Source: Bosea sp. AS-1 | Lineage (GTDB): Bacteria > Pseudomonadota > Alphaproteobacteria > Rhizobiales > Beijerinckiaceae | Reading direction: 5' to 3' | DNA: 64,000 bases | NCBI RefSeq assembly: GCF_002220095.1 | Contig: NZ_CP022371.1 | Location: 48,145-112,144, forward strand | In this document: positions 9,028 through 64,000 of the stretch, one piece after another | Layout: every line of letters starts with the position of its first letter | Position numbering within the stretch: the first letter of the stretch is position 1 | Program-made: the position numbers and the translations under genes | The notes under the pieces: generated by a model | Database searches by the model: none | What the model was told of the DNA's origin: nothing | Seen by the model: only the letters and a program-made list of their open reading frames with translations

Positions 9028-10864
9028 GGCGCTCCCGCTTCAGGCGGAAGGTAGATCAGCCTCGGGTCCGCAGCCGCAGCCTGTCGCGCCTCATCAATCT
9101 CGGCTTCGCTGAACCGGGGCAGGATCTGATCGGCGATCCGGCCATGAACGCGGCCGAACTTGGTCGTCCAGTCGGCTTCGGTGAGCGCTTGTCTCTGCGT
9201 CCTGATAAAGCTGAGGAACGACAGCAGCGCGGGCAGCTTGCGGGCCGTGATCACCGCGTTGCTGCATTCGAGACAGCCCCAAAAGGGCGACGGACAGGCT
9301 TCGCCTCTGGGCCGAACGGGCTCGCGTAGAACCCGCCGCAACTGGCGAGCCAGACATCCTGTTCGCCGCGGAGCAACGCGGTGACAGCGGCGGCGCCGGA
9401 AATGGGAAGACCGGTCGCGTGGTCGGGATCGACCCGGACGGCCGCTTCCTCGTCCGGCGACAGCACGCAGGGACGCAGGGCTGCGTCAAGCGCATCGCTC
9501 ATGGCGTCGGCGATCGTGGCTTCGTGAATATGGCGAAGCGCGGGAATGTCGGCGTAGTGATTGGCCGCAACCGCGGTGCTGTGCCCAACGGCAAAGCGCT
9601 CGAGCTGGCCGCCCGTGCGCCGGTACCATGCCGCCTTGTGAGTCTTGCGCAGGCGAGTCAGGTTGAGACGAAGGGGCTGGTCCTGTTCATCGCGGATGTC
9701 ATGCCGGCGGGTCCATGAAGCCACAGGCTCCTTCATGCCAAGCACGCGCGGGATCAAGCGGCCCCAGGCGTAGTGGACCCAGAGCGTATCGGCGCCGAGC
9801 CGGTCTCGCGCCGGGCCGGTCCACTGCAGCACCTTGCGGATCAGACCGCCCGGAGTCGAGGAACCGCCGTCGCGCACGCGCAGCCGCTTCCACTCAGCGC
9901 CGCGCGCCCGCCGCTTACAATACTCAATCTCGACATAGCCACCCGCCGGATTCTTCAGGCAATCTGCCCGCAGGTCCTTGATCGCTTCGATCTCGAGCCC
10001 CGTGTCGAGCGAGACAAGGACTATGAGCGACACGAGGTCGGCGGCGAGCAGGTGCCGGCGGCCATGCAGATCGTGGATCAGGCGATCGTTCGGCAAGCCG
10101 CTCTCACGGCGGAGTGTGTAGAGCCGCTTGAAGAGAGGATGCCTGTGCCCAATGACGCCTTCCGCATCGATCGCCGCCATGGCCGCTTCGTGTGCCGCCG
10201 CGAGCGCGCTGCTTCGAAAGGCGTCCTCGACCGTCGGCATTCGATCTGCGTCAGCGAAGCGACGGATGATGGCGGCCAGATCGGTGCGTGCCGCGGTCCG
10301 CAACGCCTTCGCGATATCGTCGCCATAGGCATCACGCGGCCGGGCGCGCACGCCCGGCCGGTCGCTCGTGTACATCAAGCGCCGCGAGGCATCGGGCGGC
10401 AGGCGGCCGGGCTCGGCGGCTTCGGCGAGCCGCAGCAAGTTGAGCACCTTGCTCATCCGGTGCAGCCGGTGATTGGGATGCAGGCCGCTCTCCTCCATCC
10501 AGGCGTCGAAGCCGTCGATGCAGGCGGCGCTCACGTCGGACAATCTGACGACGTGGGGACTAACGGCGTCGAGATACCGCCAGAACGTCTTAAGCGCATT
10601 GGCATAGGCGGAAGCGGTCGAGATCGAGCCGGCCGGACCGCCGACCTGGCAGGCGCGCCAGAGAGCACCGGCAAAACTCCGGGCCAACGCCCTGCGGCCG
10701 CTGAGCATCGTCAGGTCGATTGTCTTGCTACGGTCCGCAAGCGTGACGGAGAAGCGCAGCGACGCGATCGCAGCGACGGCTTCACCCTCGGGGTCGGGCA
10801 AGGCTTCGGGAAACAGTGCACGGCGGCCCGGCCACCGCTTTAAGGCAGTCATCGCGGCAATCAT
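9024..10864 (-). CDS. tnpB: Second tyrosine recombinase of the trio (TnpB-like, frameshifted)
   Basis: The protein starts MIAAMTALKRWPGRRALFPE. It has a SAM-like core-binding region (ALWRACQVGG to FDAWMEESG) and a catalytic half with RLRKTHKAAWYRRTG and VAANHYADI (likely nucleophile Tyr). The first arginine box reads LDTGLEIEAIKDL, with Glu where Arg is usual, so this subunit may be partly degenerate and rely on its partners. A Cys-containing tail (CGGFYASPFG, then in the next frame PSPFWGCLECSNAVI) shows that one base is missing near 9300. It overlaps tnpA by ATGA at 10861-10864. Confidence 0.85.
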
Positions 10865-12518: not shown

Positions 12519-12546
12519 CTGAGACAGGATCACAGTGTCAGGATAA
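12519..12546 (-). repeat. Right terminal inverted repeat of the mer element
   Basis: Read on the complement strand, it starts TTATCCTGACACTGTGATCC and ends in CCTGTCTCAG. It pairs with 1409-1434. It also supplies the in-frame TGA (12538-12540) that ends the 5' fragment of the split ardC. Confidence 0.75.
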
Positions 12547-13266
12547 GGCGACCAGCTCCTCGCGGGCGCGCTCGCTGCGGTCCTTGGCGTAGCGGCTGAG
12601 ATCGCGGTCGACGCGGTGCGCGGGCGCCGTCCAGTGCACGCATTCGTGCGCGAGCGTCGCCGTGTAGCTCTCCGCGTCGCGGAAGCTTTCAAACGGCGGC
12701 ATCTGGATGAGGTCGAGCGACGGCGCGAAGTAAGCCTTGTCGCCGCCGTGCCGGATCGTCGCGCCGGTGTTGGCGAAGAACGCCTCGGCGTGCGCGATGC
12801 GCTGCGCCGGCGGTGTGGCCGGCGCAGCCGCGGCCTTGTAGTACTGTTCGGGAAGCCCGTCGATCTGGTCGACGCAGAACACCGTGTAGGCGCGCAGGAA
12901 CGGCACCGTGCGCTCGACGTCGTCGCCGTTGTCGTCCGTCTCGGTCTTGGTGACCTTGTTGGCGTAGACCACCATCGTCCCGCTCTCGCCCTTGCGGATG
13001 TGTCCGCCGAGCTCGAGCGACTGCTTGAAGGTCATCCAGGTCGACGACGCGAAGCCGCGCGCCACCGCCTCCGACCAGAGCAGCACGACGTTGATGCCCT
13101 GGTAGGGCATTCCGTTGTGGCGCCGAGGCCGTGTGATGCGGCCGACGGCATTCGCCGCGCTCCAAGGCCTGACCCAAGGGCGCACGCCGCGCTCGAGGTC
13201 CGCGACGATGCGATCGGTGATGCGCGCGTAGACGTCGGCGCGCGGCTTCTCTTCCTTCCTGCTCAT
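12538..13266 (-). pseudogene. ardC: 5' fragment of resident ardC, truncated by the mer element
   Basis: The 242-residue product has the ArdC N-terminal domain (MSRKEEKPRADVYARITDRI, YQGINVVLLWSEAVARGFAS, GGHIRKGESGTMVVYANK) and the zincin motif LAHECVHWTAPAHR. It then stops after REELVALS at the element boundary. The natural continuation (AELGACFL...) is at 1193-1408. The metal site is present but the last 70 or so residues, conserved in the family, are missing, so activity is doubtful. The ssDNA-binding domain could still be made. The leader at 13291-13442 has a long stem. Confidence 0.9.
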
Positions 13267-13571
13267 TTCAATGACCTCCGTTTTGGAGGCCGCGCCTGCC
13301 GCGGCCCCTCACGGGGTCCGCGGCGGCGGCATCGCGCGCTCGCGCACCCGCAGGGCCGCAGCGCAGCGGAGGACGGCGAAGCCGTTGCGCGTGCGTGGCA
13401 TCCGCCGCATGGACCACGGATCGGGGAGGGGCCGCGGGCGCGGAGCGCCGCTCTTTAGATTTTCATTGGTCTTGTCTTGGTTTTGTCGGCGGCACGAAGA
13501 AAGGGCCGGTCTCGCGACCGGCCCTCAGAGAGAGCAGAGTGAAAGGCGGGGCCGGAGCCCCGCCGAGAGTG
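13267..13571 (-). promoter_or_regulatory. ardC leader with long-range stem; no gene
   Basis: CGCGCCTGCCGCGGCCCCTC (13291-13310) pairs with GAGGGGCCGCGGGCGCG (13426-13442) around a 115-base loop, directly upstream of ardC. The rest of the spacer holds the terminator at 13502-13525. No coding frame is convincing. This fits the family of structured leaders seen across this block. Confidence 0.5.
13502..13525 (-). terminator. Intrinsic terminator upstream of the ardC leader
   Basis: A perfect 10-bp stem AGGGCCGGTC/GACCGGCCCT with a 4-base loop is followed on the minus strand by TTTCTTCG. It ends the transcript of the gene at 13572-14158. Confidence 0.75.
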
Positions 13572-14158
13572 CTATTCGAACGCCGACATCTGGGCCGCTG
13601 CGGCCTTCTTCGAGACTGTCTCGCCGGCGTGCTCGACCTGCCGTTCGAATGGCTTCCAGGCTTCGCCGATGACCTGCTCGTAGGCGGCGACGGCCCCTCG
13701 GCCGCCATCCGGAGTGCGTGCGCCTGAAGGCCCATGTCGGCTGCGAACTCGCGCTTGCGCTGCGCCTGGCTGTCGAAGCCGACGGGGCCGTCGAGGTCTT
13801 CGTCGCGGGCGTCGTTGGCGAGTTTGGCAGTGGCCTCGCGAGCTTCGGTCACGGCGCGGGAGTAGAACTGGCCGGCGCCATGCGCGGAGCCGACGTAGGA
13901 GCCGACGATGCGTTGGAGGTGGATCTCCATCGCGCGGTCGCTGAGCCCGTCCTTCAGGGCGTCGGCGGTCTCGACGACGAGCCGCTCGTGCAGGTCGCGG
14001 ATGCCGTCGCTGTCGAGGACGGCGAGGCCGAAGCTCTCGGAGATGCGCAGCGTCTGCGCGGCGTCGGGGCAGGCGAGGCGGACCATTTCGAGGGTCGTGC
14101 CGCGGCGGAGCGGGATGACGCGGGCGGTGGAGCGAGGGGAGCGGGCGGTCTTGGTCAT
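13572..14158 (-). CDS. Unknown plasmid protein (one-base frameshift)
   Basis: The reconstructed 195-residue protein starts MTKTARSPRSTARVIPLRRG and is mostly helical and polar. It contains MEIHLQRIVGSYVGSAHGAG and FDSQAQRKREFAADMGLQAH. After a frame change it ends with AAYEQVIGEAWKPFERQVEH and KKAAAAQMSAFE. The switch lies in GAGGGGCC near 13700 and the total is 3n+2, so one base is missing. I do not recognise a family with certainty. It stands alone between a structured leader (14199-14434) and a terminator (13502-13525), so it is its own transcription unit. Confidence 0.7.
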
Positions 14159-14544
14159 GGTGTGATCCTTTCTCGGTTTCACCTTGGGAGCTGTCGGGCC
14201 TTTGCCGACGCCCCCTCGGGTGCGGTCGACCAGAACCGGCCCCAGCGGGCCGCTTCAGGGGGCGGCGGCTGCCAGGGCGAGCATGGGCGGGTTGCGGACA
14301 AGCGGGCCTTCAGGCCTGCGAGGGACGCGGCCCCCATCGCGAGACGGCGGCTGCCGATCGCTTCGCGACTTGCCCTTGAAGCGGACCGCGGACGGTTCAG
14401 ACCGCAGCACAAGCCGAGGGGGCGTCGGCAAAGGGTCACCCGCCGCCGAAACCGGGAGGTCACCGCAGGCCCTCCGACCGATCGCCGCCGCCGACGCGCG
14501 TCGGGGTCCTTCCTCGCCGTCGCGACGGTGAGGCGCTTGGTCTC
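14159..14544 (-). promoter_or_regulatory. Leader with a perfect 21-bp long-range inverted repeat; no gene
   Basis: The 21 bases at 14199-14219 (CCTTTGCCGACGCCCCCTCG then G) are exactly complementary to 14414-14434. Inside them, GGCCGCTTCAGGGGGC near 14250 pairs imperfectly with GCCCTTGAAGCGGACC near 14380, so the whole 236-base segment can fold into one long hairpin. It lies about 40 bases upstream of the gene starting at 14158. I see no coding frame here. Confidence 0.65.
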
Positions 14545-14877
14545 TCACTCCCCTGCAGCGGAAGCGGAAACGCGATTGCGCCTCCGAAACTCGGCGATCG
14601 CCGTCTCCTGCCGATCGAGCTTGCGTGTGAGCGCGTCGATCTCGCCGCGGCGGGCGAGGGCCAGCTCCGCGAGGCGCTGCTGAAACACACGCTCGTCAGC
14701 GTTCGTCCAGCTCGATGCGCTCCGGCCGTGCTGCCGGCGCTTCGCCCGTTCGGTGATCGTCATCCGCTCTGCGCGTGCCGCGATCTGGCGCTCGACAACG
14801 CGGACATGCCGCTGCGTCTCGGCATGCGCGGCTTCCATGCGCGCAAGCGCGAGACGGCGGTCCGGTGGCCCAGTCAT
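14545..14877 (-). CDS. Small coiled-coil protein, unknown
   Basis: The 110-residue product starts MTGPPDRRLALARMEAAHAE and is predicted to be almost wholly helical and charged, with heptad-like stretches (VFQQRLAELALARRGEIDAL and RKLDRQETAIAEFRRR). It overlaps the upstream gene by ATGA at 14874-14877, the same coupling as the three genes before it, and this is the main reason I accept it as real. No family is recognised. A GC-rich shadow frame is possible but less likely given the overlap. Confidence 0.55.
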   Translation of the reverse strand: MTGPPDRRLALARMEAAHAETQRHVRVVERQIAARAERMTITERAKRRQHGRSASSWTNADERVFQQRLAELALARRGEIDALTRKLDRQETAIAEFRRRNRVSASAAGE

Positions 14878-15125
14878 CGCACAGTCCCCAGCGGCCACAA
14901 TGGAAAAGCGGATTCGTCCGCCGTGTAGTCATCGGGGAGGGAGACGCCCGCGATGGATGAAGAAAGGTCGTCGCCGGCGACCGCCCAGTCGATCAGCGCC
15001 GAGTTGGCCCCGGCGTGCTTGCGCATGTCGGGGGTGAGGATGCCGTCGAGCGCGTCGGCGATGGCGCTCTCTGGATTGTGGTGCGCGTGGACCAGGAGGT
15101 TCACGGCGACGAGGTACGCTTTCAT
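14874..15125 (-). CDS. Small unknown protein
   Basis: This 83-residue protein starts MKAYLVAVNLLVHAHHNPES. It continues AIADALDGILTPDMRKHAGA and SALIDWAVAGDDLSSSIAGV, and ends in LPDDYTADESAFPLWPLGTV plus Arg. The composition is normal for a globular acidic protein. It is coupled by 4-base overlaps both upstream (15122-15125) and downstream (14874-14877). The function is unknown and I see no membrane segment or metal motif. Confidence 0.7.
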   Translation of the reverse strand: MKAYLVAVNLLVHAHHNPESAIADALDGILTPDMRKHAGANSALIDWAVAGDDLSSSIAGVSLPDDYTADESAFPLWPLGTVR

Positions 15126-25980: not shown

Positions 25981-26551
25981 CTACTTGCCGGCAGCGGAGG
26001 CTTGCCTCGGGAGTGGAAGCGGATCGTCGGAGAGCATCCGGAGGAAGGCGATGACGTTCGCTCGGTCGTTCGCGTCGGGCAGGCCCGCGAACGTCATGAA
26101 TGTGCCCTTCACGTAGTCCCGCGGCGAGGTGATGAAGTCGCTGACCATCTGGTAGTCCCAGTGGGCCTTCCCGCCCATCGAGAAGGCTTTCATCGCCGGC
26201 GAGTAGTTGAACCCGGGGTGCGAGGCGACTGCGCGCCCGATCACGCCCCAGAGATTCGGGCCGACTTTGTTCGGGCCGCCTTTGGTGCCGTCGTGGCAAG
26301 CTTGGCAGCGCTTGAAGATTGCTTCGCTCTTCGTGGCGTCGGCCGACAGGGAGGAGCGCGCTGATTGCGACGCGCTTCGGCGCGGCGGCCGCAGCGCTCT
26401 GACCCATCGGCGCCGCCGCTTTCAGGATGTAGCCGGGTATCCGCGGCGCGGGGTTGGCGAAGATCGCGTCGGACAGAAGTGAGATCGTGAAGACGACGAA
26501 GGCGGCCCCGAGCAGGCCGCCAAGTATTTTGTTGATCTCGAACGAATCCAT
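25981..26551 (-). CDS. Membrane-anchored c-type cytochrome (frameshifted)
   Basis: Residues 1-60 (MDSFEINKILGGLLGAAFVV) give a single N-terminal membrane anchor. After a frame change near 26345 the heme domain follows: EAIFKRCQACHDGTKGGPNK with the CxxCH site, VGPNLWGVIGR, FNYSPAMKAF, and a distal GTFMTFAGLPDANDRANVIA with the Met ligand. It is a class I cytochrome of the membrane-bound cytochrome c552/CycM type. The length is 3n+1, so here one extra or two missing bases explain the break, unlike most other frameshifts in the window. It is an odd resident among plasmid housekeeping genes; its electron partner is unknown. Confidence 0.82.
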
Positions 26552-47782: not shown

Positions 47783-49131
47783 ATGCCGACCGCCGACGAG
47801 TACCGATCGCTGGAGATGGACGCCGCCGCCGCGACCTCCGTCGCGCGCGGCCGCACCGCGCTCGGACGCTTCCTGAAGGTCGCGGTCCCGCTCGGCGCGC
47901 TCGCCGTCGCCGGCTGGCTCGTCTGGGGCACGCTGTCGCGGCGCACGTCGACGATGACGACGCCAGACAAGGAGGCGTTCACCACCACGCAGTTTCCGGC
48001 GCCGTCGCTGTCGACACCGCGGCCGCAGACCAACCAGGGAACGATCGTCATCCCGCCCGCCCCGCCCGAGCAGCCGCCGCCAGCTCCCCCGGTCGCGCCT
48101 CCGCTCGCGCTGCCGCCCCGCCGGCGCCGGAGCCGCCGCTGGCGGCAGCGCCCCCCAACGACGACGAGACACGCCGCCTCGCCGAGCTCGAGCGCCAGCG
48201 CCTGGAGGAGGAGCGCAAGCGCTGGGAGCGGCTGCGCGCGCCGCAGGTCATCGACGACAACGCCGCAGCGGCCGCGACGGCCCCCAACGGCGACGAGAGC
48301 GGCCGGGCCGCAGCCGGCGCCGACGACGACCCGAACCGGCGCTTCCTCGCGTCGGTCTCCTCCGCGGGCGTCGAGGTCGCCCGCGCGACGAAGAACAACC
48401 GGATCGACGCGTTGGTCGCGCAGGGCACCTTCATCCGCGGCGTGCTGGAGACGGCCGTGCAGAGCGACCTGCCGGGAATGGTGCGCGCCGTGGTGACGGA
48501 GAACGTGTGGTCGTTCGACGGCCGCCGCGTGCTGATCCCCGCCGGCAGCCGCCTCATCGGCGAGTACAAGTCGGGAATCGCGCAAGGCCAGACGCGGGTC
48601 TTCATCGTCTGGACCCGCATGCTGCGCTCCGACGGCGTGTCGGTGCAGCTCGGCTCGAACGGCGCCGACGACCTCGGCCGGGCCGGTAACGCCGGCTTCG
48701 TCGACAACCACTACCTCGAGCGTTTCGGATCTGCGGTCATGCTGTCGCTGGTCGGCGGCGCGGCGCAGTTCCTCAGCGCCTACGGCCAGAACACCAACGG
48801 CTACGGCAACGGCACGGTGATCACGTCGACCGACCCGGTCACCGGCGTGGTGACGCAGACGCAGACGGGCGTGAACCAGAACCAGCTCTCGCTGCAGGCG
48901 CGCGAGATCGCCGCGCAGAACATCTCGCAGACCCTGACCAACATCGCGCAGGAGGCGCTCCGCAACTCGATCAACATCCCGCCGACGATCTACCTCGACC
49001 AGGGCACGCGCATCATCGTGTTCGTGCGCCGCGACCTCGACTTCTCGGCGCTCTACCCCGACCCGGTCAAGGAAGCCCTGAGGGAGCTCAAGCGTGAACG
49101 CGCCGGCGCGAAGCCTGACAGTCTTCATTGA
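47783..49131 (+). CDS. virB10: VirB10 channel protein (one-base frameshift)
   Basis: The first frame gives MPTADEYRSLEMDAAAATSV, one membrane helix (VAVPLGALAVAGWLVWGTLS) and a Pro-rich linker up to about 48115. The next frame continues EPPLAAAPPNDDETRRLAEL and the C-terminal barrel: GTFIRGVLETAVQSDLPGMV, VLIPAGSRLIGEYKSGIAQG and PPTIYLDQGTRIIVFVRRDL. The total is 3n+2 and the switch lies in a run of CCGCC repeats, so one base is missing. VirB10 links the two membranes. Its end overlaps virB11 by 38 bases. Confidence 0.9.
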
Positions 49132-53619: not shown

Positions 53620-54570
53620 TCAGCTCGCGTTTTGGACCAGCATGGCCAATTGGATTCGCTTGTGAGCGCCACACTTAGACATAATATGGCGCACATGGTT
53701 CTTCACAGTATGCGTGCTGAGTTGCAGTCTTTCGGCAATGCTGGCGTCAGTCAGTCCCCGGTAGAGGAGCGCTAGAACCTCACGTTCCCGGAGGCTCAAA
53801 CTTGCAAGCCGGATCGCATCCGATATCTCGACGGCAGCGCTCCGTTGAGGGGCACTCGCCAAACGCACCACCGCTCGGAGGCTCGAAACCAGCTCTTCCT
53901 GCAATTCGCCTTGAGGTGTGCTGATCAGAAGGACTCTCGGCTGCACCTGGTCAGCATTCGCGAAGACTCGTCTTATTATTTTCTTGCGCCCCCTCTGCAA
54001 GCTGATGTCGAACGGCACATCCCAACCAACCTTCCCAAGACCACTCCTGATTGCGTGAGTGACCGCATCGTCTTTTTCATCGAGTTCGAACCATTCGAGC
54101 CACACGCCCCAAGTGGCACGAAAGAACTCGGTAGCCCAAAGCTGAAATTTCGTCACGGTGTCGAAATGCTGGCGGATCGCCTCAAACAGCTGCATCGTCG
54201 CTTGCGAGGGAGCGCCCAGCGGCCGAACCCGCAGGTGCATGAAGCCGTGTTCGCCCAACAGGTCGATCGTCCCCAGTTTGCAAATGGTTGAAACAAAACC
54301 TCCATTGGCCAGCTGGATCGGCCAAAGCGCATCGCAACCGCAGGCAAGATAGTCGTCAAGCATATCCCAGCAGCAGGACGTCCCAGCTGGCCCGGTTGGC
54401 GCAGTTGCAAGCAGGTCTTCGCAAGCGCATCCGCCCGTGGCCCGTTTGGCCAGTCGTTCAAAGGACTCCGTGGCAAACACCACCTGCCGGCGTGAGTCGA
54501 TCAGAAGGCCCGGCTCCGCGAAACGACAAATGACGTCTTGTAGGAAGTGGTTCGAAACGACGTCCCTCAT
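53620..54570 (-). CDS. Cys-rich LuxR-type transcription regulator
   Basis: This 316-residue protein starts MRDVVSNHFLQDVICRFAEP. Residues 10-130 look like a PAS-type sensor with seven Cys (48, 50, 66, 67, 77, 79, 97, as in GGCACEDL, TSCCWDMLDDYLACGCDALW). The C-terminal LuxR helix-turn-helix is clear: SLREREVLALLYRGLTDASI and LQLSTHTVKNHVRHIMSKCG. No autoinducer or phospho-receiver domain is present, so the Cys cluster may sense metalloid or redox state (inference). It is divergent to the Rieske gene and a dyad (54580-54599) lies just before its start. Confidence 0.85.
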   Translation of the reverse strand: MRDVVSNHFLQDVICRFAEPGLLIDSRRQVVFATESFERLAKRATGGCACEDLLATAPTGPAGTSCCWDMLDDYLACGCDALWPIQLANGGFVSTICKLGTIDLLGEHGFMHLRVRPLGAPSQATMQLFEAIRQHFDTVTKFQLWATEFFRATWGVWLEWFELDEKDDAVTHAIRSGLGKVGWDVPFDISLQRGRKKIIRRVFANADQVQPRVLLISTPQGELQEELVSSLRAVVRLASAPQRSAAVEISDAIRLASLSLREREVLALLYRGLTDASIAERLQLSTHTVKNHVRHIMSKCGAHKRIQLAMLVQNAS

Positions 54571-54579
54571 CAGGCCTCC

Positions 54580-54599
54580 GATGACACGTTTGTGTCATC
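54580..54599. promoter_or_regulatory. Perfect operator-like dyad upstream of the LuxR gene
   Basis: GATGACAC-GTTT-GTGTCATC is a perfect 8-4-8 inverted repeat starting 10 bases before the LuxR gene start, in the divergent spacer ahead of the Rieske gene. It fits a dimeric regulator site for autoregulation and control of the oxidase operon. Confidence 0.7.
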
Positions 54600-54745: not shown

Positions 54746-55231
54746 ATGGACAACAAGTCAATCAAGCGGCGCGATGCGCTACGTCTTGCTGGCACGGTCG
54801 CGGCGGGTGGTGGACTGGCGGTGGCAGGGCTCGCAATGCCGGCGACCGCGGCATCGCCTCGCGTTCGCGTCGCTGCGCTGTCGCAAGTCGTTCCAGGCCA
54901 GCCCATCGAATTCAGTTTTCCAAAGGACGCCACAGCGGCGCTGATCGATCTTGGGGAGGCCGTTGCTGACGGCATCGGACCCAACAGCTCGGTCGTCGCC
55001 TACAGCGCGTTGTGCCAGCACATGGGCTGTCCGGTCGAATTCCGCGTCGACTCAAAGGAATTCGTCTGCGGGTGCCATGCAAGCCGTTTCGATGTGAGGC
55101 GCGGAGGGATGGCCGTCGAGGGGCCCGCCACGCGCGGTCTGCCACGTATCGCGCTCGAGATCGAAGACGGCGTTATCTATGCCACAGGCGTCGCCGGGGG
55201 CGTGGTCTATGGATACGCGTGCGACGCCTGA
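54746..55231 (+). CDS. aioB: Rieske subunit of an arsenite-oxidase-like enzyme
   Basis: This 161-residue protein starts MDNKSIKRRDALRLAGTVAA with a Tat signal (KRRDALRLAG) and has AGGAGGA 3 bases before the ATG. The Rieske ligands are LCQHMGC (Cys, His) and VCGCHASRF (Cys, His), with the two additional Cys that form a disulfide. It is the AioB length and fold. It should carry electrons from the catalytic subunit to a cytochrome c in the periplasm. It lies 49 bases before the catalytic subunit. Confidence 0.85.
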   Translation: MDNKSIKRRDALRLAGTVAAGGGLAVAGLAMPATAASPRVRVAALSQVVPGQPIEFSFPKDATAALIDLGEAVADGIGPNSSVVAYSALCQHMGCPVEFRVDSKEFVCGCHASRFDVRRGGMAVEGPATRGLPRIALEIEDGVIYATGVAGGVVYGYACDA

Positions 55232-55280
55232 TCCGATCTGCTCGGCAATGAAACAAGAACGGTTTGGGAGGAATGAACAG

Positions 55281-57586
55281 ATGACAGAGGCATTCAAACC
55301 CGGTGCGCGGGTGCCGGGGACACGCCGGGGTTTTCTCAAGGGGCTTTGGCCGGGGGCGCTGCGTTCCCAGCACTGACCATGGGCACTGGGGCGAAAGCGC
55401 AGGGCGATCAAGGCTCTTGCCTGGAACTGCCGCCCGAAAACGCCGAAGTGTTCAACGCAACTTGCCAGTATTGCATGGTGCAATGCGGCTACAAGGTGCA
55501 CGTGTGGGAACAGGGCACAGGCATCAAGCCTGAAGGCTCCTATACGGGTGCCCTTTCCGGGGAATGGTATTCGCCGTCTTTCGTGATTCCGGCCGAAAAA
55601 AACGGCAAACAAGTTTTCATCGCTGCCATTCCCGACAAGGATTGTGTCGTTAACGCCGGCGATTATTCGATCCGCGGTGGCACCAATGCCGAGACGCTGT
55701 TCTCCAAGAACCTTCCGACGGCTCACCGACGGTTGCTGCATCCGATGATCCGAAAGGGAGGGAAGGGGTCGCCGCTAACGCAGGTGAGCTGGGACGAGGC
55801 CATCGATTTTGTCGTGACCAATCTCGGGCGGATCAGGGATGAGCACGGCCCGGACGCCCTTTCCCTCGTGTGGGGCGATTGGCTCTACAACCTGCACACC
55901 TATGCGATGCTGAAGCTCTGGTTTACCGGCATCGGCTCGTCGACTCACGCTGGGAACGGCTGGTTCTACGACGAGGAAAGCGCCGGCATCTCCGCCGCGT
56001 TCGGCACCGGAACGCGCTCCTTCACTGAGGAGGATTTCGAGCTCACCAAGCTTCTGGTCACAGTCGGCACCAATATCGAGGCCAACGGCTCGGTCTGGTA
56101 TCTTCGTTTCTACCAGAACAACATGTCAGGCGGGAGCGCCAAGCATATCGAGATCGATCCCCGCCGTACCTATCAGGCGCGGCTTGCCGAAGAACACGGT
56201 GGGCTGCACCTTCAGGTTCGGCCCGGTTCAGACGCCATTTTGCTCGGCGCGATCATCCGTGAGATCATCAATCGCGGCGGCTATGACAAGGAGTTCGTCG
56301 CGGAGTACGTTAACGGCTTCGACGGATTGCGCGAGACGGTGGCCGATGCGAAGTTCGAGCTTGCGGCTGCCGCCCGAGAGACCTGGGTCCCAGCGGACAA
56401 GATCCAGCGCGCCGTGGATATGCTGATCGAAGCGCGCGGCAAGACGATGATGCTGAACGAGAAGGGCATCATGCACCAGATGGCCGCCTTCGAGGCGCAG
56501 CACGCGCTGGCGGCACTCGGCGCCATTCTGGGCAATGTCGGCAAGCCGGGCGCCTGTACGTCGCGCGCGGGCGGACACCCTGGTGGCTCCCTCGTCTGGC
56601 CGCCTGAGCCTCCGAGCCGCAAGGACAACAACTACATGTATAAGCGCCTTGCGGCCGGCGGCATCAAGGCAACCTGGGCTTTTGGCTGCAACATCGCCAA
56701 GCAACTGCCATCCCTCACAAAATACCTGCCGATGATCAAAGAGACGTTCGTCATCGTGCAGGACCGGGCGCACACGGATATGGACGAATTTGCCGACGTC
56801 CTTTTGCCCGCCGCGACTTGGGGGGAAAACGATACCCTACTCACCAGCGTTACCCGCCGTCTGCGCATGACGCAGCAGTTCATGAATCCACCCGCCGAGG
56901 CAAGGCCCGATTGGTGGATCGTGTCGCAGATTGCCAAGCGGATGGGCTACAGCGGTTATGACTGGCAGACACCCAAAGACGTCTGGGACGAGATGCGGGT
57001 GCAAAGCGGCGACGTCAAGGACATCACTTGGGAAATGCTGCTGAAGGCCGGGACCAACGGGGTCCGCTTCCCCTACATCAATGGCAAGGCGCCCGAGCGC
57101 TTCTTTTCCGATGAGTATGCGCAACTCACGGGCAAGCGGTTTCCGACATCGGACGGTAAGGTGCACCTGGAAAAGACTGTTGTGCTGAAGGACTTCCGTG
57201 TCGGCCAGTATGAATGGCAGGAGATCAGCGGCGACTATCCACTGATGGCCATAGACTTCCGACTGAACGAGCTGTGGAACACCGGCTATACCTACTGGGA
57301 GAAGCCCACTGTCAGCGCTCGTACGCCGGATGCCTATATCCAGATCCATCCGGAGGACGCGAAAGCGCGGGGCATCGCAGAGGGCGAGATGGTCGAGATC
57401 CGATCGCCCTATGGCAAATGCAGAGGCGTAGCGCGCGTGACCGAAGATATCATCAAGGGCGTCGTCGGTATTCCAGCTCTCTTCCCCAAGGCAGGACAGG
57501 AATTCAATTTCGCGACACGCCCGCACGTTAGTCCGGTCAACGGCGACTTCGACACTATGGTCGCCTGCGATGTGGCAAAGGGCTAA
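55281..57586 (+). CDS. AioA-like molybdopterin oxidoreductase, substrate unknown (frameshifted)
   Basis: The start is ATG 55281 (MTEAFKPGARVPGTRRGFLK), with a Tat-like RRGFLK, and one base is missing near 55345; the total is 3n+2. The catalytic frame then has NATCQYCMVQCGYKVHVWEQ (Cys-x2-Cys-x3-Cys, a [3Fe-4S] site with Ser in YSIRGG as in AioA). Molybdopterin domains follow through to HVSPVNGDFDTMVACDVAKG. RAGGHPGG near residue 430 keeps the Arg and His of the AioA pocket. The AioA segment HGGAGGGYE, which carries the other His and Glu, reads instead as WGDWLYNLHTYAML. It is about 769 residues, shorter than AioA (about 845). Substrate may be arsenite, antimonite or another oxyanion. Confidence 0.82.
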
Positions 57587-57728
57587 CCGGGCTTTTGCAA
57601 ATCACCGGCGTTCTGTCGTTCAAGGCGAAGAGAAGGTACAGCGCCTCTTCATCGACGCCGCCGCGGTGTCAGGCCGCGGCGGGGTGACCTCATTCACTGT
57701 GATCATCAACAAAAAGGATTGATGCAAC
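57587..57728 (+). other. Short spacer between the catalytic subunit and cytochrome c
   Basis: No gene. An imperfect GC-rich hairpin near 57655-57683 (GCCGCGG repeats) lies in the middle and may modulate the transcript ratio between the oxidase and the cytochrome. Confidence 0.4.
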
Positions 57729-58108
57729 GTGAAACTATACAAACTAATAGCTGCGACCCTGGTTCTGTTTTTGACCCCTCAGCTTGCCACTGCTCAGGAT
57801 GTCAGCACTGGCGAGACGGTATTCAAGAAATGCGCGGCTTGCCACGCGGCAGACGACAGCACCAACAAAGTTGGTCCGCCTCTCGGTCACGTCGTCGGCC
57901 GCACCCCCGGGACGGTCGAAGGCTTCAAATACTCAAAGGCGATGATCGATGCTGGAGCGTCTGGCCTGGTGTGGAATGAGGTCGCGCTGTCCGAATATCT
58001 TGTCGCCCCAAGGCGAAGGTTCCCGGTACGAAGATGACCTTTGCCGGGCTGAAAAAGCCGGAGGAAGTCCAGAGTGTCATCGCGTATCTCAAGAGTATAT
58101 CTCAGTAG
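57729..58108 (+). CDS. Cytochrome c of the oxidase operon (one-base frameshift)
   Basis: The start (GTG 57729) gives MKLYKLIAATLVLFLTPQLA, a signal peptide, then TGETVFKKCAACHAADDSTN with the heme site CAACH and KVGPPLGHVVGRTPGTVEGF. After one missing base near 58005 (GCCCCAAGG) it ends TKMTFAGLKKPEEVQSVIAY and LKSISQ; the Met ligand is in TKMTFAG. It is a class I cytochrome of about 126 residues. In arsenite oxidase operons the cytochrome after aioA accepts electrons. The stop is 10 bases before the moeA start. Confidence 0.85.
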
Positions 58109-58118
58109 GAGGCTGGCG

Positions 58119-59396
58119 ATGGCGTCTTTGGCCGCAGAGTCCGATACAGCCTGCTATGCAGGATCGCCAGGCAAGGTCATTCCCGTCGACATCGCCGCCG
58201 GGAAGGCGCTCGCGATTGCCAGACCCGTACGCGAAACCCTCCGGGTGCCCCTACTCGCTGCGGCCGGTCGCGTTCTCGCCGTGCCGGTGGACGCGCCGAT
58301 CAACCTGCCGCCCTTCGACAATGCCGCGATGGACGGGTACGCTATAAGGGTTGCGACCTTCGGCGGCGAAGGGCCCTGGAGCTTGGCCGTTAACTGCCGT
58401 ATTGCGGCCGGCGAATGCGGCGGGCCAATGCCTTCCCGGCGGAACGAGGCCATCCGCATTTTTACCGGCGCGCCGGTTCCTGCGGGCTTCGACGCCGTCG
58501 TCATGCAGGAACACGTCGAGCGAAGCGGCGTCGAAATTATTGTCGATCACCGACCGAGAGTGGGCGAGAACATCAGGTGGGCAGGAGAGGATATGCGCTC
58601 CGGCGACCGGCTGTTGGAGCCTGGTGTGCTTCTGAGCGCACATAAGCTTCCACTCCTGGCGGGGGTAGGCTTTGCGGAGGTCGAGATCGTCCGTAAAGTT
58701 CGGATCGGGATGATCTCGACCGGATCCGAATTGCGAAATCCCGGCGAGGAACTGGGCGAGGGACAGATCTACAATTCGAACAGGTTCATGATCCTTTCGT
58801 TGCTGGCGGCGCGAGCCTGGGCCGAAGTCGTCGATTTTGGAATCGTGCCGGACCGGCCGGAGGCGCTTTCCGAGACGATCAGCAAAGCGGCCAGGGCCTG
58901 CGATGCGCTCGTCACGACCGGAGGGGTCTCGGCGGGTGAGGAAGACCACATCGTCGCTGTCCTCGACGGCTTGGGCGCCAATCTGGACGTCCTCAAAGTG
59001 GCGATGCGTCCGGGGAAGCCGCTCAAGATCGGCACCATCGGGTCGATGTTCTTCGCTGGTCTGCCGGGCAATCCGAATGCGGCGCTCGTGACGTTCCGCC
59101 AGATTGCGCTGCCGGCGATCCACGCGATCGCGGGCCTTCGCGAGACCGGGCCCGACTGGCAGCCCGCAGTGGCTGGCTTCACCTGCGCCAAAAAGCTGGG
59201 ACGCACAGAGTTTGTGCCGGTCAGGATATGCGGACGAGACGAAACCGGCCGGCCCGTGCTCGAAATGCTTGGCAGAGGATCGTCAGCAAGCCTCTCGACG
59301 ATGGCGGCCGCCGAAGGCATCGCGCTGCTGCCGCCCGAAATCGGAATGATCGAGCGAGGTTCGGTGCTGCGTTTCGAGCGCTTCTGCGATTGTTGA
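58119..59396 (+). CDS. moeA: MoeA molybdopterin molybdenumtransferase
   Basis: This 425-residue protein starts MASLAAESDTACYAGSPGKV at ATG 58119, with AGGAGG directly after the cytochrome stop. MoeA signatures are INLPPFDNAAMDGYAIR, IFTGAPVPAGFDAVVMQE, ISTGSELRNPGEELGEGQIY, LVTTGGVSAGEEDHI and AGLPGNPNAALVTF. It inserts molybdenum into molybdopterin. The order B subunit, A subunit, cytochrome c, moeA matches known arsenite oxidase operons, so it supplies cofactor to the AioA-like enzyme. Confidence 0.93.
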   Translation: MASLAAESDTACYAGSPGKVIPVDIAAGKALAIARPVRETLRVPLLAAAGRVLAVPVDAPINLPPFDNAAMDGYAIRVATFGGEGPWSLAVNCRIAAGECGGPMPSRRNEAIRIFTGAPVPAGFDAVVMQEHVERSGVEIIVDHRPRVGENIRWAGEDMRSGDRLLEPGVLLSAHKLPLLAGVGFAEVEIVRKVRIGMISTGSELRNPGEELGEGQIYNSNRFMILSLLAARAWAEVVDFGIVPDRPEALSETISKAARACDALVTTGGVSAGEEDHIVAVLDGLGANLDVLKVAMRPGKPLKIGTIGSMFFAGLPGNPNAALVTFRQIALPAIHAIAGLRETGPDWQPAVAGFTCAKKLGRTEFVPVRICGRDETGRPVLEMLGRGSSASLSTMAAAEGIALLPPEIGMIERGSVLRFERFCDC

Positions 59397-59562: not shown

Positions 59563-59871
59563 CTGTCGCACCCCGAGCCGAGCTTCTACACCGCCGGCAT
59601 CAAGAGCTATGGCCGTGCGCCGACCTTTCTCATGCTGACCGGCTACGAGCAGGTCCGCTTGATCGCGTTGGCGTTGGCCGGCGACCTCTTGGCCGCCGAC
59701 AAGGTCGAGCTCGTCCTGCCCGAAACCGGCGTCTGCTCGACTGACCAATCCGGCGCCGTGTCGTCCTGTCGCGGCAGCTCGCAAACCGTACTCGTGTTCG
59801 TGCCCAGGACGAATGACAGGTGCTGCGGCGAGCCAGCGCTGGCGGGCGCGGAAGAGTTCTGCGCCAATGAC
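59563..59871 (+). pseudogene. C-terminal tail of a lost flavoprotein (copy 1)
   Basis: The in-frame text LSHPEPSFYTAGIKSYGRAP, then TFLMLTGYEQVRLIALALAG and VELVLPETGVCSTD matches the end of NAD(P)/FAD-binding proteins found next to MFS exporters in arsenic operons. A degraded Cys-rich tail follows (DRCCGEPALAGAEEFCAND). Everything N-terminal to HPEP is missing and the preceding 110 bases do not match the family. The segment 59637-59752 is similar to 61240-61356, so two copies existed. Confidence 0.6.
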
Positions 59872-59950
59872 TTTCATGGGGGGCGACCGGAAAGAAGGAC
59901 TGCGGTCCCCTGGGCGAGGCAGTGCCCTCGCCGGCCAGCGGCTGCTGCTG

Positions 59951-61240
59951 ATGACGACTTTGGCCCACGCGCGACGGCAGAGCCGGGTAATCGACGCCTC
60001 ACCGGTGCATTACGGGTGGATTATCCTGGCCGCTGGCATTGTCGGCGCCTTCATGACCACGCCGGGTCAAACGGCCGGGGTGTCGGTCTTTTTCGACCCG
60101 ATGACCGCAGATCTCGACATCTCGCGGACGTGGGCTTCTTTCGCCTACACCGTCGGGACGCTTGCTGGCATTCTTCCGGCACCGCTCATCGGGCGTTGGA
60201 TCGACAGACGCGGCCCGCGCATCACGGCAACCGTCATCGCCGTCGGCCTGGCCCTGGCCTGTGCCTTCATGGCGCTTATTCGGTCGGACCTGATGCTGCT
60301 TCTCGGCTTCGCGTTGCTGCGCGGGACAGCCGTAGGCGGGCTCAGCCTCGTCAGCCAGCACGTCGTGAACCTGTGGTTTGTCCAGCGCCGGGGGATCGCG
60401 GCCGCTGGCGCCACCCTCGGATTAGCCGCCGGAGCGGTCGTGTTCCCGCAGCTGATAGAGTTCCTCATTCAGCTATACGGATGGCGTGGGGCATACTTGG
60501 CGTTGGCTGGAATTGTTGTCGTAACCATCCTGCCTGTTGCCGCCGGACTCTTCCGCGACCGCCCCGAGTCTTTCGGCCTGCTCCCGGATGCCGGTCTGCC
60601 GCCGCCCACGCAGGTTGTGCACGTCGAGCGATCGTTCACGCGAGACGAAGCGTTGCGGTCTGGCGTATTCTGGCTTCTGTGCGCTGCCAGCTTCCTCAGC
60701 AACGCTATCGGCACCGGCCTGCTGCTTAACCATTTCTCGATCATGGAAAAGGTCGGGTTGGCGCGAAGCAGCGCCCTTCAACTCTTGGCGCCTCTGGCCG
60801 GGGTGCAGATTGTGGCCACCCTTGCCATAGGCGCTCTGATGGACCGCACCGAGCCACGACATCTCGTGCCGGTGCCCATGCTGGCACTCGCCGCGGGTTC
60901 CGCCTTGGCCGCCTTCGGCGGCGGCTCTGCCTTTGGCTGGCTCTATGCGTTGACGACAGGAGCAGCGCTCGGAGCGACCCAGGCCATCCAAGCGGCCGGC
61001 TACGCGCAGTATTTCGGTCGTGATCACCTCGGGGCGATCCGGGGGGTGTCCTACGCCTTCGGCATCAGCGGTGCCGCGTTCGGACCGCTACCTTTTGCAG
61101 CGAGTGTCGCCGGGACGGGAAGCTATGCCGCAGTGCTGGCCGGCAGCTGCTTTCTGTGCGCGGCGTGTGCTGCGGCCGCTATCTTCGTTAGATGGCCTTT
61201 TTCGGCGGCGCTGTCGGAAAGACCCTCTCCTCCCTTATGA
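59951..61240 (+). CDS. MFS transporter
   Basis: I place the start at ATG 59951 (MTTLAHARRQSRVIDASPVH); the frame is open further upstream but that part lacks the family pattern. About 429 residues with 12 predicted helices, including YGWIILAAGIVGAFMTTPGQ, the MFS loop GRWIDRRGPR, LLLGFALLRGTAVGGLSLVS and AYLALAGIVVVTILPVAAGL. The neighbours suggest export of arsenicals or another oxyanion-linked compound, but the substrate is unknown. Its end overlaps the second flavoprotein tail by 4 bases. Confidence 0.85.
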   Translation: MTTLAHARRQSRVIDASPVHYGWIILAAGIVGAFMTTPGQTAGVSVFFDPMTADLDISRTWASFAYTVGTLAGILPAPLIGRWIDRRGPRITATVIAVGLALACAFMALIRSDLMLLLGFALLRGTAVGGLSLVSQHVVNLWFVQRRGIAAAGATLGLAAGAVVFPQLIEFLIQLYGWRGAYLALAGIVVVTILPVAAGLFRDRPESFGLLPDAGLPPPTQVVHVERSFTRDEALRSGVFWLLCAASFLSNAIGTGLLLNHFSIMEKVGLARSSALQLLAPLAGVQIVATLAIGALMDRTEPRHLVPVPMLALAAGSALAAFGGGSAFGWLYALTTGAALGATQAIQAAGYAQYFGRDHLGAIRGVSYAFGISGAAFGPLPFAASVAGTGSYAAVLAGSCFLCAACAAAAIFVRWPFSAALSERPSPPL

Positions 61241-61512
61241 CGACCGGCTACGAGCAGATCCGCTCGAACTCAGCGGCGATTGCCGGCGATCTCGCAGCGG
61301 CCAACAAGGGCGAGTTCGTCCTGCACGAAACCTGCGTCTGCTCGACCGACCGATCCTGGGACGAGTCGGCCGGCTGCTGCGGCGGGCCTTCCCCGGCAGG
61401 CGTCGGCGCATGCTGCGTGGCCAACGCGGTCGCAAAGGCCGAAGGCGAAGCCGGATGCGGCTGCGCCGCGCCTCCCGCCCTTTCAACGGCGCGCGCAAGC
61501 TGCTGCGGATGA
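61237..61512 (+). pseudogene. C-terminal tail of a lost flavoprotein (copy 2)
   Basis: A 91-codon frame starts MTTGYEQIRSNSAAIAGDLA and ends with a Cys-rich tail ESAGCCGGPSPAGVGACCVA and AGCGCAAPPALSTARASCCG. It matches the last 90 residues of the flavoprotein family seen in copy 1. Its stop overlaps the second MFS start by ATGA, the coupling expected in an intact flavoprotein-MFS pair. It may still be translated as a small Cys-rich peptide. Confidence 0.65.
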
Positions 61513-62702
61513 GCGGAGCAGCGAGGACGACTGGTGTCGTAGTCGCATTGGGGACCGCCCAGACGCTGGCCTGGGCGTCCACCTACTATCTGCCCGCGAT
61601 CCTCGCCGTGCCGATGGCGCGAGATCTCGGCGTGCCGCCGTCCTGGGTCTTCGGGGCGTTCTCGGTGGGGCTCGTCGTCTCGGCCCTGCTCGGGCCGGCC
61701 GCCGGCCGTGCCATCGACGCGCGCGGCGGCAGGCCGGTGCTGGTCCTCTCGAGCCTCGTCTTCTCGGGCGGTCTCGCGCTGCTCGCCGTCGCGAACGGCG
61801 TGACGCTCTCGGTCCTCGGTTGGATCGTTCTCGGGGCCGGCATGGCGTTCGGCCTGTACGATGCGGCCTTTTCGACCTTGGCGCACCTCTATGGACGTGA
61901 CGCACGCGGACCGATCACGGGCATCAGCTTGATCGCCGGCTTTGCCAGCACGGTCGGCTGGCCGCTGTCGGCCTTGTCCGAAGCCGAGCTCGGATGGCGC
62001 GGTGCCTGCCTAGCCTGGGCCAGCCTGCATCTGTTCACCGGCCTGCCCACGAACCGCTTTCTGATACCGGCCGCGGCTTCAGCGGCCCGCGACCTCCCAG
62101 AGGTTTCCTCGGCCGAGGCTGGCATCTCCGGACCCTCTGCGCGGCGCGCGATGGCGCTGCTGGCGTTCGTCTTTGCCGTGACCTGGTTCGTGTCGACGGC
62201 GATGGCCGCTCACCTGCCGCGGTTGCTCGAAGCCGCCGGGGCGTCGTCGGCCGCGGCCGTCGCCGCGGGCGCGCTGATTGGGCCAGCCCAGGTCGGCGCG
62301 AGACTCTTGGAGTTTGGTTTTCTTCTGCGCTATCACCCGCTCGTGTCTGCCCGGCTCGCCGCGCTAGCGCACCCCCTTGGGGCGGCGACTCTCCTGACGT
62401 TCGGCGGCCCGGCAGCAGCCGCTTTCACGCTCCTGCACGGTGCAGGCAACGGCGTGCTCACGATCGCAAAAGGCACCTTACCGCTCGCCATCTTCGGGCC
62501 GGCCGGCTACGGCCTGCGCCAAGGCATACTCGGCGCGCCCTCGCGCCTGCTCCAGGCCGGCGCGCCGCTCGCGTTCGGCCTGGTGATCGACGCTTACGGC
62601 GCTCTCGCGGCTCTTGCGTTGTCGACGAGCGTAAGCTTGGCCGCCTTCGTGGCGCTTCTCAGCCTGCGGCTCGATAGCGAGCCAACGACTACGCGGACCT
62701 GA
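61509..62702 (+). CDS. MFS transporter (arsenic operon type)
   Basis: This 397-residue protein starts MSGAARTTGVVVALGTAQTL at ATG 61509. Helices include ASTYYLPAILAVPMARDLGV, WVFGAFSVGLVVSALLGPAA, GRAIDARGGRPVLVLSSLVF (the MFS loop) and FIGPAQVGAR-like LIGPAQVGARLLEFGFLLRY. It resembles the MFS exporters that follow flavoproteins in alphaproteobacterial arsenic operons (ArsK-like). It should pump an arsenical or related compound outward. The other MFS gene in this window is clearly different in sequence. Confidence 0.85.
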   Translation: MSGAARTTGVVVALGTAQTLAWASTYYLPAILAVPMARDLGVPPSWVFGAFSVGLVVSALLGPAAGRAIDARGGRPVLVLSSLVFSGGLALLAVANGVTLSVLGWIVLGAGMAFGLYDAAFSTLAHLYGRDARGPITGISLIAGFASTVGWPLSALSEAELGWRGACLAWASLHLFTGLPTNRFLIPAAASAARDLPEVSSAEAGISGPSARRAMALLAFVFAVTWFVSTAMAAHLPRLLEAAGASSAAAVAAGALIGPAQVGARLLEFGFLLRYHPLVSARLAALAHPLGAATLLTFGGPAAAAFTLLHGAGNGVLTIAKGTLPLAIFGPAGYGLRQGILGAPSRLLQAGAPLAFGLVIDAYGALAALALSTSVSLAAFVALLSLRLDSEPTTTRT

Positions 62703-62889: not shown

Positions 62890-63311
62890 TCAGCCGGCTC
62901 GCTGCCCTTCCGCGTCGATCAGCAGAGAACCGTCTTCCTTGCGGAATGGTCCTGGCGGAAGACGGTCGAGAAGATCCAGCACCGTCTCGCTCGGCCGGCA
63001 CAGCCTCACGCCCTTGGCCGTGCAAACAATCGGCCGATTGACCAGCACCGGGTGCTCGATCATGGCGGCGAGCAACGTCTCATCGTCGACTGCAGGGTCC
63101 AGCAATCCTAGTTCTGCGGCCGGCGATTTGGTCTCACGCAATGCCGTGCGTGGGTGAGGCCAGCCGCAGCGAACAGGCTCAGAAGCTGTGGCCTGGTCCA
63201 ACCCGTCTTGAGGTATTCAATCACGGTCGGGCGATAGTCCGCCGCCTCGATGATGGCGAGCACGTTGCGCGATGTGCCGCATTCGGGATTGTGGTGGATG
63301 ACGACATTCAT
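62890..63311 (-). CDS. arsC: ArsC arsenate reductase, glutaredoxin type (one-base frameshift)
   Basis: The first frame starts MNVVIHHNPECGTSRNVLAI with the catalytic Cys in HNPECGTSRN. The second frame continues PRTALRETKSPAAELGLLDP, MIEHPVLVNRPIVCTAKGVR and ends LIDAEGQRAG. The total is 3n+2 and the switch lies in a CCC run near 63138, so one base is missing. About 140 residues is normal for the family. It reduces arsenate to arsenite for the Acr3 pump directly upstream. Confidence 0.9.
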
Positions 63312-63315
63312 GGAA

Positions 63316-64000
63316 TCAGCCACGGAAGGCCTCTCGGATCCCCGTCTCCGCCACCCGTCCTCCTGCTGCGACACGTCGCTTGACCGCCGGGCCGGCCTCG
63401 TACCAACCGCGCGTACCGTTTACGATCTTGACTACCGACAGCATCACCGGAACCTCGATAAGGACGCCCACCACTGTCGCCAGCGCCGCGCCGGAATTGA
63501 ATCCGAAGAGGCTGATGGCCGCGGCGACCGCCAGTTCAAAGAAATTGCTGGCGCCGATAAGCGCTGACGGCGCCGCGACGCAATGCGCCTCGCCGGTTGC
63601 GCGGTTGAGCAGATAGGCAAGACCGGAATTGAAATAGACCTGGATCAGGATCGGCACCGCCAGGATGGCGATGATCAGCGGCTGCGCCAGGATCTGCTCG
63701 CCCTGGAACCCGAACAGCAGCACCAGCGTCGTAAGCAGCGCGACGAGCGAGAGCGGTTGCAGGGTTTTCAGGAGACGAAGCAGGGCAGGCTCGCCGCCGC
63801 TCGCCATGATCGACCGGCGGACGACTTGGGCGATGATCACGGGCACAACGATGTAAAGCGCGACCGACAGGAGCAGCGTCTCCCACGGCACGGTGATCGC
63901 CGACAGGCCAAGAAGAAGCCCGACAATGGGCGCGAAGGCGACGATCATGATGAGGTCGTTGAGGGCCACCTGGCTCAATGTGAAGTGCGGCTCGCCATCG
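63316..64000 (-). CDS. acr3: ACR3-family arsenite efflux pump (5' end outside the window)
   Basis: The visible part reads TLSQVALNDLIMIVAFAPIV, then TVPWETLLLSVALYIVVPVI, FNSGLAYLLNRATGEAHCVA, PSALIGASNFFELAVAAAIS and ALATVVGVLIEVPVMLSVVK. The NFFELAVAAAI block and GVLIEVPVML are strong ACR3 landmarks. The frame continues past the right edge. It exports arsenite. The gene lies 4 bases upstream of arsC in one operon. Confidence 0.92.
   Translation of the reverse strand, partial: DGEPHFTLSQVALNDLIMIVAFAPIVGLLLGLSAITVPWETLLLSVALYIVVPVIIAQVVRRSIMASGGEPALLRLLKTLQPLSLVALLTTLVLLFGFQGEQILAQPLIIAILAVPILIQVYFNSGLAYLLNRATGEAHCVAAPSALIGASNFFELAVAAAISLFGFNSGAALATVVGVLIEVPVMLSVVKIVNGTRGWYEAGPAVKRRVAAGGRVAETGIREAFRG

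Follow-up and report, generated by a model that had tools for sequence, protein, structure and literature searches.

Which substrate is served by the AioAB-like molybdenum enzyme that Bosea sp. AS-1 encodes on contig NZ_CP022371.1, close to a group of ars genes? The stretch of DNA analyzed here (the window, 64,000 nucleotides) covers positions 48,145–112,144 of this 112,144-base contig, C2, in a genome of 3 contigs and 5,838,389 bases. The module consists of a Rieske [2Fe-2S] small subunit resembling AioB (54746..55231, + strand, in window coordinates), an AioA-like molybdenum catalytic subunit with a [3Fe-4S] motif (746-aa open frame, 55346..57586, +), a c-type cytochrome (57729..58037, +), and MoeA, a molybdopterin molybdotransferase (58074..59396, +). 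This is the gene order of the aio operon of NT-26, as the original prediction, an earlier note made from the sequence alone, had stated. The small subunit scores above the TIGR02694 cut-off (110.7 versus 95.65 bits), and the Pfam scan over the module gave matches above the cut-offs to Rieske_3, Molybdopterin, and Molydop_binding for the large subunit.

We propose, with a probability of roughly 0.45, that the module encodes a molybdenum-Rieske oxidase of the periplasm that acts on the oxyanion of a trivalent metalloid and represents a lineage next to AioA and IdrA; its likeliest substrate would be antimonite, Sb(III). Antimonite is our leading guess and not a result. Efficient antimonite-oxidizing enzymes are hardly known, and the clade described below provides a testable candidate for one, as well as a contrast set for the residues that set As, Sb, and iodate specificity.

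Placement of the large subunit

The large subunit belongs to a rare lineage apart from AioA and IdrA. The clade comprises nine distinct loci, and the eight relatives are 57–77% identical to the window protein in a multiple alignment. All eight come from metagenome-assembled genomes (MAGs), namely two Pseudomonadota with no finer placement, a Rhodobacteraceae, a Hyphomicrobiales, two Burkholderiales, an Aquificaceae, and a Bipolaricaulota bin. They were found by scanning genome contigs with the large subunit, and as the scan requires exact short peptides, more distant members can be missed. With 2–10 candidates scored per genome, no further member was found in 101 relatives, 397 genomes of the order, 136 of the phylum of the Aquificaceae MAG, 300 of the order of the Burkholderiales MAG, and 367 of the class. 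In PLSDB, 981 plasmid records matched, all below 60% identity. The best one listed reached 31% (L033), and AioA records among the best 40 of these 981 matches were about 26–29% identical to the window protein.

In the 40-row maximum-likelihood tree, the nine members are grouped with support of 100/100, while the 21 AioA rows (100/99) and the six IdrA-type rows (100/100) form groups of their own. Two quick trees with fewer outgroups gave the clade a support of 100 in both and the 20 AioA rows 97 and 99, and the three groups stay apart. The separate clade that had been suspected from the sequence is thus recovered in every tree, and a position firmly within canonical AioA was not observed. The maximum-likelihood tree places the clade outside AioA plus IdrA. 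In approximately unbiased (AU) tests, a grouping with AioA was marginally rejected (p 0.044) and a grouping with IdrA was not rejected (p 0.095), and the quick trees disagree on the branching order with supports of 48 and 46, one of them pairing the clade with IdrA (48). Because these results leave the order unsettled, we do not claim that the clade is sister to all the rest.

The IdrA-type rows were named by clade, and the gene neighbors were checked for one of them, L034. Some rows are duplicates and were dropped: L018 is from the same MAG as L015, L008 is the gene of L023, and L006, L017, and L069 correspond to the window gene. L004, L007, L008, and L055 were omitted from the 40-row tree, and L001 and L005 gave no tblastn match. 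L054, L002, and the fragment L046 are included in the 40-row tree and not in the quick trees; L046 is also left out of the pocket and signal motif alignments.

Against the AioA model TIGR02693, the window protein reaches 313.2 bits, which is below the curated cut-off of 359.05. In the other carrier genomes, clade members match this model only in stretches of up to 200 bits, none of them above the cut-off. The clade provides a marker gene that would escape surveys using the AioA family model at its curated cut-off. Membership in canonical AioA was rejected on the grounds of the separate clade, this score, and the pocket residues. Membership in IdrA was set low, as the clade lies outside the IdrA rows, has a different pocket pattern, and di-haem peroxidases were not seen among the window genes scanned.

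The best match in the PDB by sequence is AioA (5.3e-57). An AlphaFold model of the large subunit built from nine sequences reached a mean predicted local distance difference test score (pLDDT) of 60.6 and a predicted template modeling score (pTM) of 0.49, with values below 50 in the pocket loops 204–230 and 398–416. A fold search with this weak model returned arsenite oxidases first and formate dehydrogenases close behind, at a root-mean-square deviation of about 11 Å. As the model is too weak for geometry, the pocket analysis rests on alignments.

Among the titles and abstract openings listed in open-access searches, none describes this clade; subscription papers and preprints were outside the scope of this search. 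The parts covered of one IdrA study report an unknown clade near IdrA that includes proteins of arsenite oxidizers and use Halorubrum and Dehalococcoidia homologues as IdrA outgroups (PMC8692401). Another study places AioA and IdrA in a single family, and the parts covered mention no third lineage (PMC10100899).

Two of the MAGs contain additional molybdenum enzymes. One (L015/L018; genome G812, identical to G066) combines a clade member with a canonical AioA (L042), an IdrA-type protein (L050), and a C-terminal fragment of AioA that contains two stops (L058). In L016, the clade member is followed about 2.4 kb downstream by another molybdopterin oxidoreductase, which has a Molybdopterin_N domain (12536–15112); a c-type cytochrome frame lies between the two.

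Substrate pocket, cofactor motifs, and export signals

In NT-26 AioA, the second-sphere pocket consists of Asp169, His199, Arg201, Glu207, Lys413, Arg447, His451, and Glu453, and the part of the source covered here calls His199, Glu207, Arg447, and His451 pivotal (PMC10448176). The published numbering fits the translated NT-26 protein. The original prediction had assigned the arsenite-binding His and Glu to an HGGAGGGYE segment, which is replaced in the window protein. This assignment was wrong, as the pocket residues sit in the motifs HNRPAYNSE and RxGGHQE, in the K of YEKG, and in the D of DHGGAG. The HGGAGGGYE stretch was found only in AioA rows, and its leading Asp169 is the only pocket residue in it, which the clade keeps. 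L033, with its complete set of eight pocket residues, lacks HGGAGGG too, as do all six IdrA rows. Hence, its absence is not diagnostic.

The pocket alignment has 36 rows (nine clade members, 20 AioA, six IdrA-type, and L033). At the eight places, the clade carries Asp178, Gly203, Gly205, Glu211, Lys373, Arg407, His411, and, at the last one, Gly, Lys, or Asp (in six, two, and one of the nine). The same pairing was obtained with an hhalign profile-profile alignment. The equivalents of Asp169, Glu207, Lys413, Arg447, and His451 are therefore kept in all nine members, which amounts to five of the eight pocket residues and three of the four pivotal ones, and His199 (Gly), Arg201 (Gly), and Glu453 are lost in all nine. 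With His199, one residue of the pivotal set of AioA is missing. Of the His and Glu that had been thought missing, both alignment methods recover the Glu as E211, and the His is indeed lost (G203). The pocket is closer to that of AioA than the original prediction held; the GGH and Arg part, which it had described as retained, is present as RAGGH.

The six IdrA-type rows keep His199, Lys413, Arg447, and His451; they all lose Asp169, Glu207, and Glu453 and have Lys or Thr at the place of Arg201. Judged from the aligned residues, the pocket pattern of the clade is neither that of AioA nor that of IdrA.

The position of the Mo ligand holds Phe or Val in 9/9 members, and none of them has Cys, Sec, or Ser there. 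The predicted Cys-x2-Cys-x3-Cys cluster motif is present in all nine with a Ser at the place of the fourth Cys, a trait of AioA. Counted from the first cluster Cys, the core has 707 residues in the window protein and 703–707 in the eight members that are complete, with L010 truncated at a contig end, versus 794–849 in 20 AioA rows and 862–873 in the IdrA-type rows. The core of the clade is at least 87 residues shorter than that of AioA, in line with the shorter protein noted before.

Twin-arginine translocation (Tat) signals had been noted for the module. The Rieske frame has a twin-arginine region, KRRDALRL, in agreement with this. In the large subunit, the motif RRGFLKG appears in three-frame translation (55282..55344, +) in a frame that differs from the 746-aa frame, which places a frame break within the signal region. 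The eight other members all have a Tat motif (RRxFL or RRxML) 45–50 residues before the first cluster Cys. The motif is found in 0/20 AioA and 0/6 IdrA-type rows; L021 and L023 match the pattern only ahead of the probable start. It is present in L033. The Rieske subunit retains a Cys pair that is missing from NT-26 AioB in the alignment and presumably forms a disulfide.

Compared with the AioAB enzymes of NT-26 and Alcaligenes faecalis, the module shares a Rieske subunit that scores above the cut-off of the AioB family, the [3Fe-4S] motif, the lack of a Cys, Sec, or Ser ligand to Mo, the gene order, and most of the pocket. It differs in the large subunit, which scores below the family cut-off (313 versus 359), has low identity to the AioA matches listed, forms a separate clade, lacks His199, Arg201, Glu453, and HGGAGGG, and has a shorter core and a Tat motif (in the other eight members). 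It also differs in a LuxR-type regulator that replaces AioXSR.

With IdrAB, the clade has in common the cluster motif, a short loop, and a Rieske partner, which is also present in the L034 locus. Unlike IdrA, it keeps Asp169 and Glu207 and loses His199, in addition to forming a separate clade. Synteny of idrABP1P2 with di-haem peroxidases is the rule for IdrA in the parts covered of the source (PMC8692401). In L034, a Tat-motif gene and the large subunit are preceded by two di-haem peroxidase genes of the MauG/MbnH type, whereas none was seen among the 11 window frames scanned (52.5–64 kb), which bears out the missing peroxidase partners.

NaoABC is a nitrate-dependent Sb(III) oxidase of Symbiobacteriaceae, in which NaoA clusters nearest to NapA and NaoB is a separate 4Fe-4S subunit, as described in the portion covered (PMC11521347). 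It resembles the module in belonging to the DMSO-reductase family, in a Rieske subunit related to AioB, and in the substrate Sb(III), which is hypothetical for our clade. By this description it is set apart, and no 4Fe-4S gene was found among the window frames scanned.

L033, an AioA-like protein from plasmid p1 of Cytobacillus firmus M7 (7254–10286), shares the large-subunit Tat motif, the short loop, and nearby ars genes. It differs in its low identity, its complete pocket, and a long branch of its own. Its gene lies between pst and ars genes.

Regulator, host genome, and candidate function

Divergent from the module lies a gene for a LuxR/GerE-type transcriptional regulator (53620..54570, − strand; GerE PF00196). 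The intergenic region contains a 9-bp inverted repeat with one mismatch, GATGACACG-TT-TGTGTCATC (54580..54599), which is a candidate operator; this repeat as such was not found in the other loci. Homologues of the regulator adjoin the enzyme in five of the eight other loci (L009, L011, L013, L014, and L015), and none was found in L010 (a 3-kb contig), L012, and L016. They are only 23–39% identical to the window protein. Nevertheless, eleven positions ahead of the DNA-binding domain are invariant in 6/6, C50, C66, and C67 among them. In Pfam, the sensor part has no clear family outside the helix-turn-helix, with PAS at E 0.069 in one of the six. With up to eight candidates scored per genome, a profile of the sensor part matched 2 of 279 genomes of the order. 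These two (G000, the genome analyzed here, and G066) are also the two enzyme carriers identified among 397 genomes. Because three thiols are invariant, we suggest that the regulator may sense a trivalent metalloid. No paper linking a LuxR-type regulator with antimonite was found in the open-access literature.

The same genome has a canonical aioB-aioA-moeA-cytochrome set on the 5,536,255-base contig, the chromosome. It is preceded by genes for a PhnD-type periplasmic protein, a histidine kinase, and a sigma-54 regulator, which we read as aioX/S/R like those of NT-26. Among the frames scanned in the window, aioX/S/R are not present beside the plasmid module, which has the LuxR-type regulator instead. 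As canonical aio is already on the chromosome, another enzyme acting on plain arsenite would duplicate its function.

AioA also occurs above the family cut-off in five of the eight other carriers (G807, in pieces, G808, G809, G812, and G813) and not in G806, G810, and G811. The search is loose at E 1e-20, where 6 of 14 control genomes match and none lies above the cut-off; hence, AioA presence was counted from matches above the cut-off. Of the 398 genomes sampled from the phylum, 14 match the AioA model, and ten of these, including the Bosea genome itself, fall in the AioA clade. AioA is thus present in 6/9 carrier genomes compared with 9/397 others (Fisher p 6.6e-8, a test that assumes independence). 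The original guess at a metalloid is strengthened by this co-occurrence, by the regulator with three Cys that travels with the enzyme, and by arsC, acr3, and an ArsK-like gene, none of which lies more than about 6.5 kb from the gene for the large subunit.

The choice of antimonite follows from three points. AioAB turns over Sb(III) about 6500-fold more slowly than As(III), as given in the part covered of the NT-26 study (PMC10448176), and the host already has AioAB. Bosea sp. AS-1 oxidizes both Sb(III) and As(III) and has aioAB without anoA, and a further oxidase was suspected by its authors, according to the part covered of a review (PMC8453088). That the module is this suspected enzyme, i.e., a dedicated antimonite oxidase controlled by a new one-component LuxR-family regulator that binds trivalent metalloid via three cysteines, is possible, if doubtful, on the present sequence comparisons.

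For the proposed metalloid oxidase, the following mechanism is conceivable. Both subunits would be exported in the folded state via the Tat pathway, for which the window large subunit has its motif out of frame. The substrate would react at a molybdenum-bis(pyranopterin guanine dinucleotide) (Mo-bisPGD) center without a protein ligand to Mo, where Asp178, Glu211, Lys373, Arg407, and His411 are predicted to hold it. Gly at the places of His199 and Arg201 of AioA likely opens the pocket. Two electrons would pass from Mo via the [3Fe-4S] cluster and the Rieske [2Fe-2S] cluster to cytochrome c, a path modeled on AioAB and consistent with the motifs. The co-inherited regulator, with its three Cys, would sense the trivalent metalloid and switch the divergent operon, and Acr3 and the ArsK-like pump, judged by their families, would export metalloid that enters the cytoplasm.

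Several observations weigh against this proposal. All nine members lack His199, which forms a hydrogen bond with the Mo oxo ligand in AioA. Apart from the regulator, the Rieske subunit, and the large subunit, neighbors are little conserved: the window acr3 matches only L009, whose gene reaches 113 bits versus an acr3 cut-off of 282.8; the ArsK-like protein and the window cytochrome have no match in the eight other loci (L016 has an unrelated-looking c-type cytochrome downstream); and MoeA has a single further match, located on L012 at a distance of about 4 kb. An aquaporin-type gene is present in L015. The eight other members are known solely from MAGs, several of them on contigs of 3–10 kb, and the co-occurrence with AioA may reflect arsenic-rich habitats, kinship, or MAG binning errors. 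Finally, the window copy may be inactive, with its signal region and cytochrome frame-broken.

The pocket would also suit a second arsenite oxidase that carries out the AioAB reaction under other conditions, such as pH, arsenite level, or electron acceptor, and with different regulation. Most pocket residues are retained for this, including the Glu207 equivalent, ars genes adjoin the module, and AioA is the closest PDB entry by sequence and, with the weak model, also by fold. We nevertheless consider it rather unlikely, as the complete aio operon on the chromosome and the presence of AioA in most carriers argue for a different job, and none of the nine members has His199, Arg201, or Glu453. 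An opened pocket could instead admit some other trivalent species of arsenic or of a metalloid, for example methylarsenite, thioarsenite, tellurite, or selenite. Gly in place of His199 and Arg201 would enlarge the pocket. ArsK exporters transport methylated trivalent arsenicals in addition to As(III) and Sb(III), and the gene beside the module is only ArsK-like. We regard such an activity as improbable; nothing favors these substrates over inorganic Sb(III) or As(III), and arsenic-methylation and Se/Te genes were not searched for.

The frame breaks in the large-subunit signal region, the cytochrome, arsC, and acr3 might mean that the window copy is an acquired module in decay that has lost its function. 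Transfer genes of the same contig are broken too, however. A comparison with 27 Bradyrhizobium plasmid proteins gave matches on C2 for 20; 3 of the 20, including VirB10, are split into pieces of different frames, the third via a weak C-terminal piece only. Because the breaks are spread over unrelated genes, assembly indels appear likelier than decay. In addition, 746 codons are open, and the differences from L009 are concentrated at third codon positions (0.147, 0.125, and 0.489 for the three positions), with which a recent loss would still be compatible. Copies of the clade with intact frames occur in relatives, and a decayed window copy appears quite improbable to us. A reductase like IdrA, in which iodate or another oxyanion would be reduced with electrons from cytochrome c via the Rieske center, is the most improbable reading. 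One quick tree pairs the clade with IdrA, the AU test leaves this grouping standing, and the short loop is common to both, but the 11 window frames include no di-haem peroxidase and the pockets are reversed, with His199 kept and Asp169 and Glu207 lost in the six IdrA rows and the opposite in the clade.

Plasmid setting and neighboring genes

For Bosea sp. AS-1, the part covered of the published description gives a genome of 5.83 Mb with 66% G+C that consists of one chromosome and two plasmids (PMC11804256). C2 contains a transfer region of the VirB10/VirB11/VirD4 type and is hence interpreted as a plasmid. Among the plasmid matches listed for this region, Afipia and Bradyrhizobium are best (83–85%) and one Bosea record is lower (82.6%). 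The G+C content is 59.5–60% at 52–58 kb, 64% at 58–60 kb, and 65–73% in the remaining window. As it is lower at 52–58 kb than elsewhere, the module looks acquired.

The cytochrome of the module is CycA/c550-like and below the family cut-off, and its C-terminal part lies in another frame. Downstream of moeA, a major facilitator superfamily (MFS) transporter with unassigned substrate follows (59813..61240, +; PF07690, with all NCBIfam matches below their cut-offs). Next comes an ArsK-like MFS transporter (61434..62702, +), which reaches 221.8 bits with NF033733, below the cut-off of 400. A broken glutaredoxin-type arsC (62890..63374, −) consists of two overlapping frames, both of which match TIGR00014. 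Part of acr3 (63316..63978, −) was identified with TIGR00832 and the joined contig ends; its remainder crosses the end of C2 in more than one frame.

A MerR-type regulator is encoded outside the window, close to acr3 but on the far side of the contig end (C2:2094–2867, L063; 132.9 bits versus a mercury-family cut-off of 150.85). A SoxB-like protein is also found outside the window (C2:10668–12140, L063; 315 bits, below the family cut-off of 550). Within the window, a further c-type cytochrome reading frame lies far from the module (25984–26421, −).

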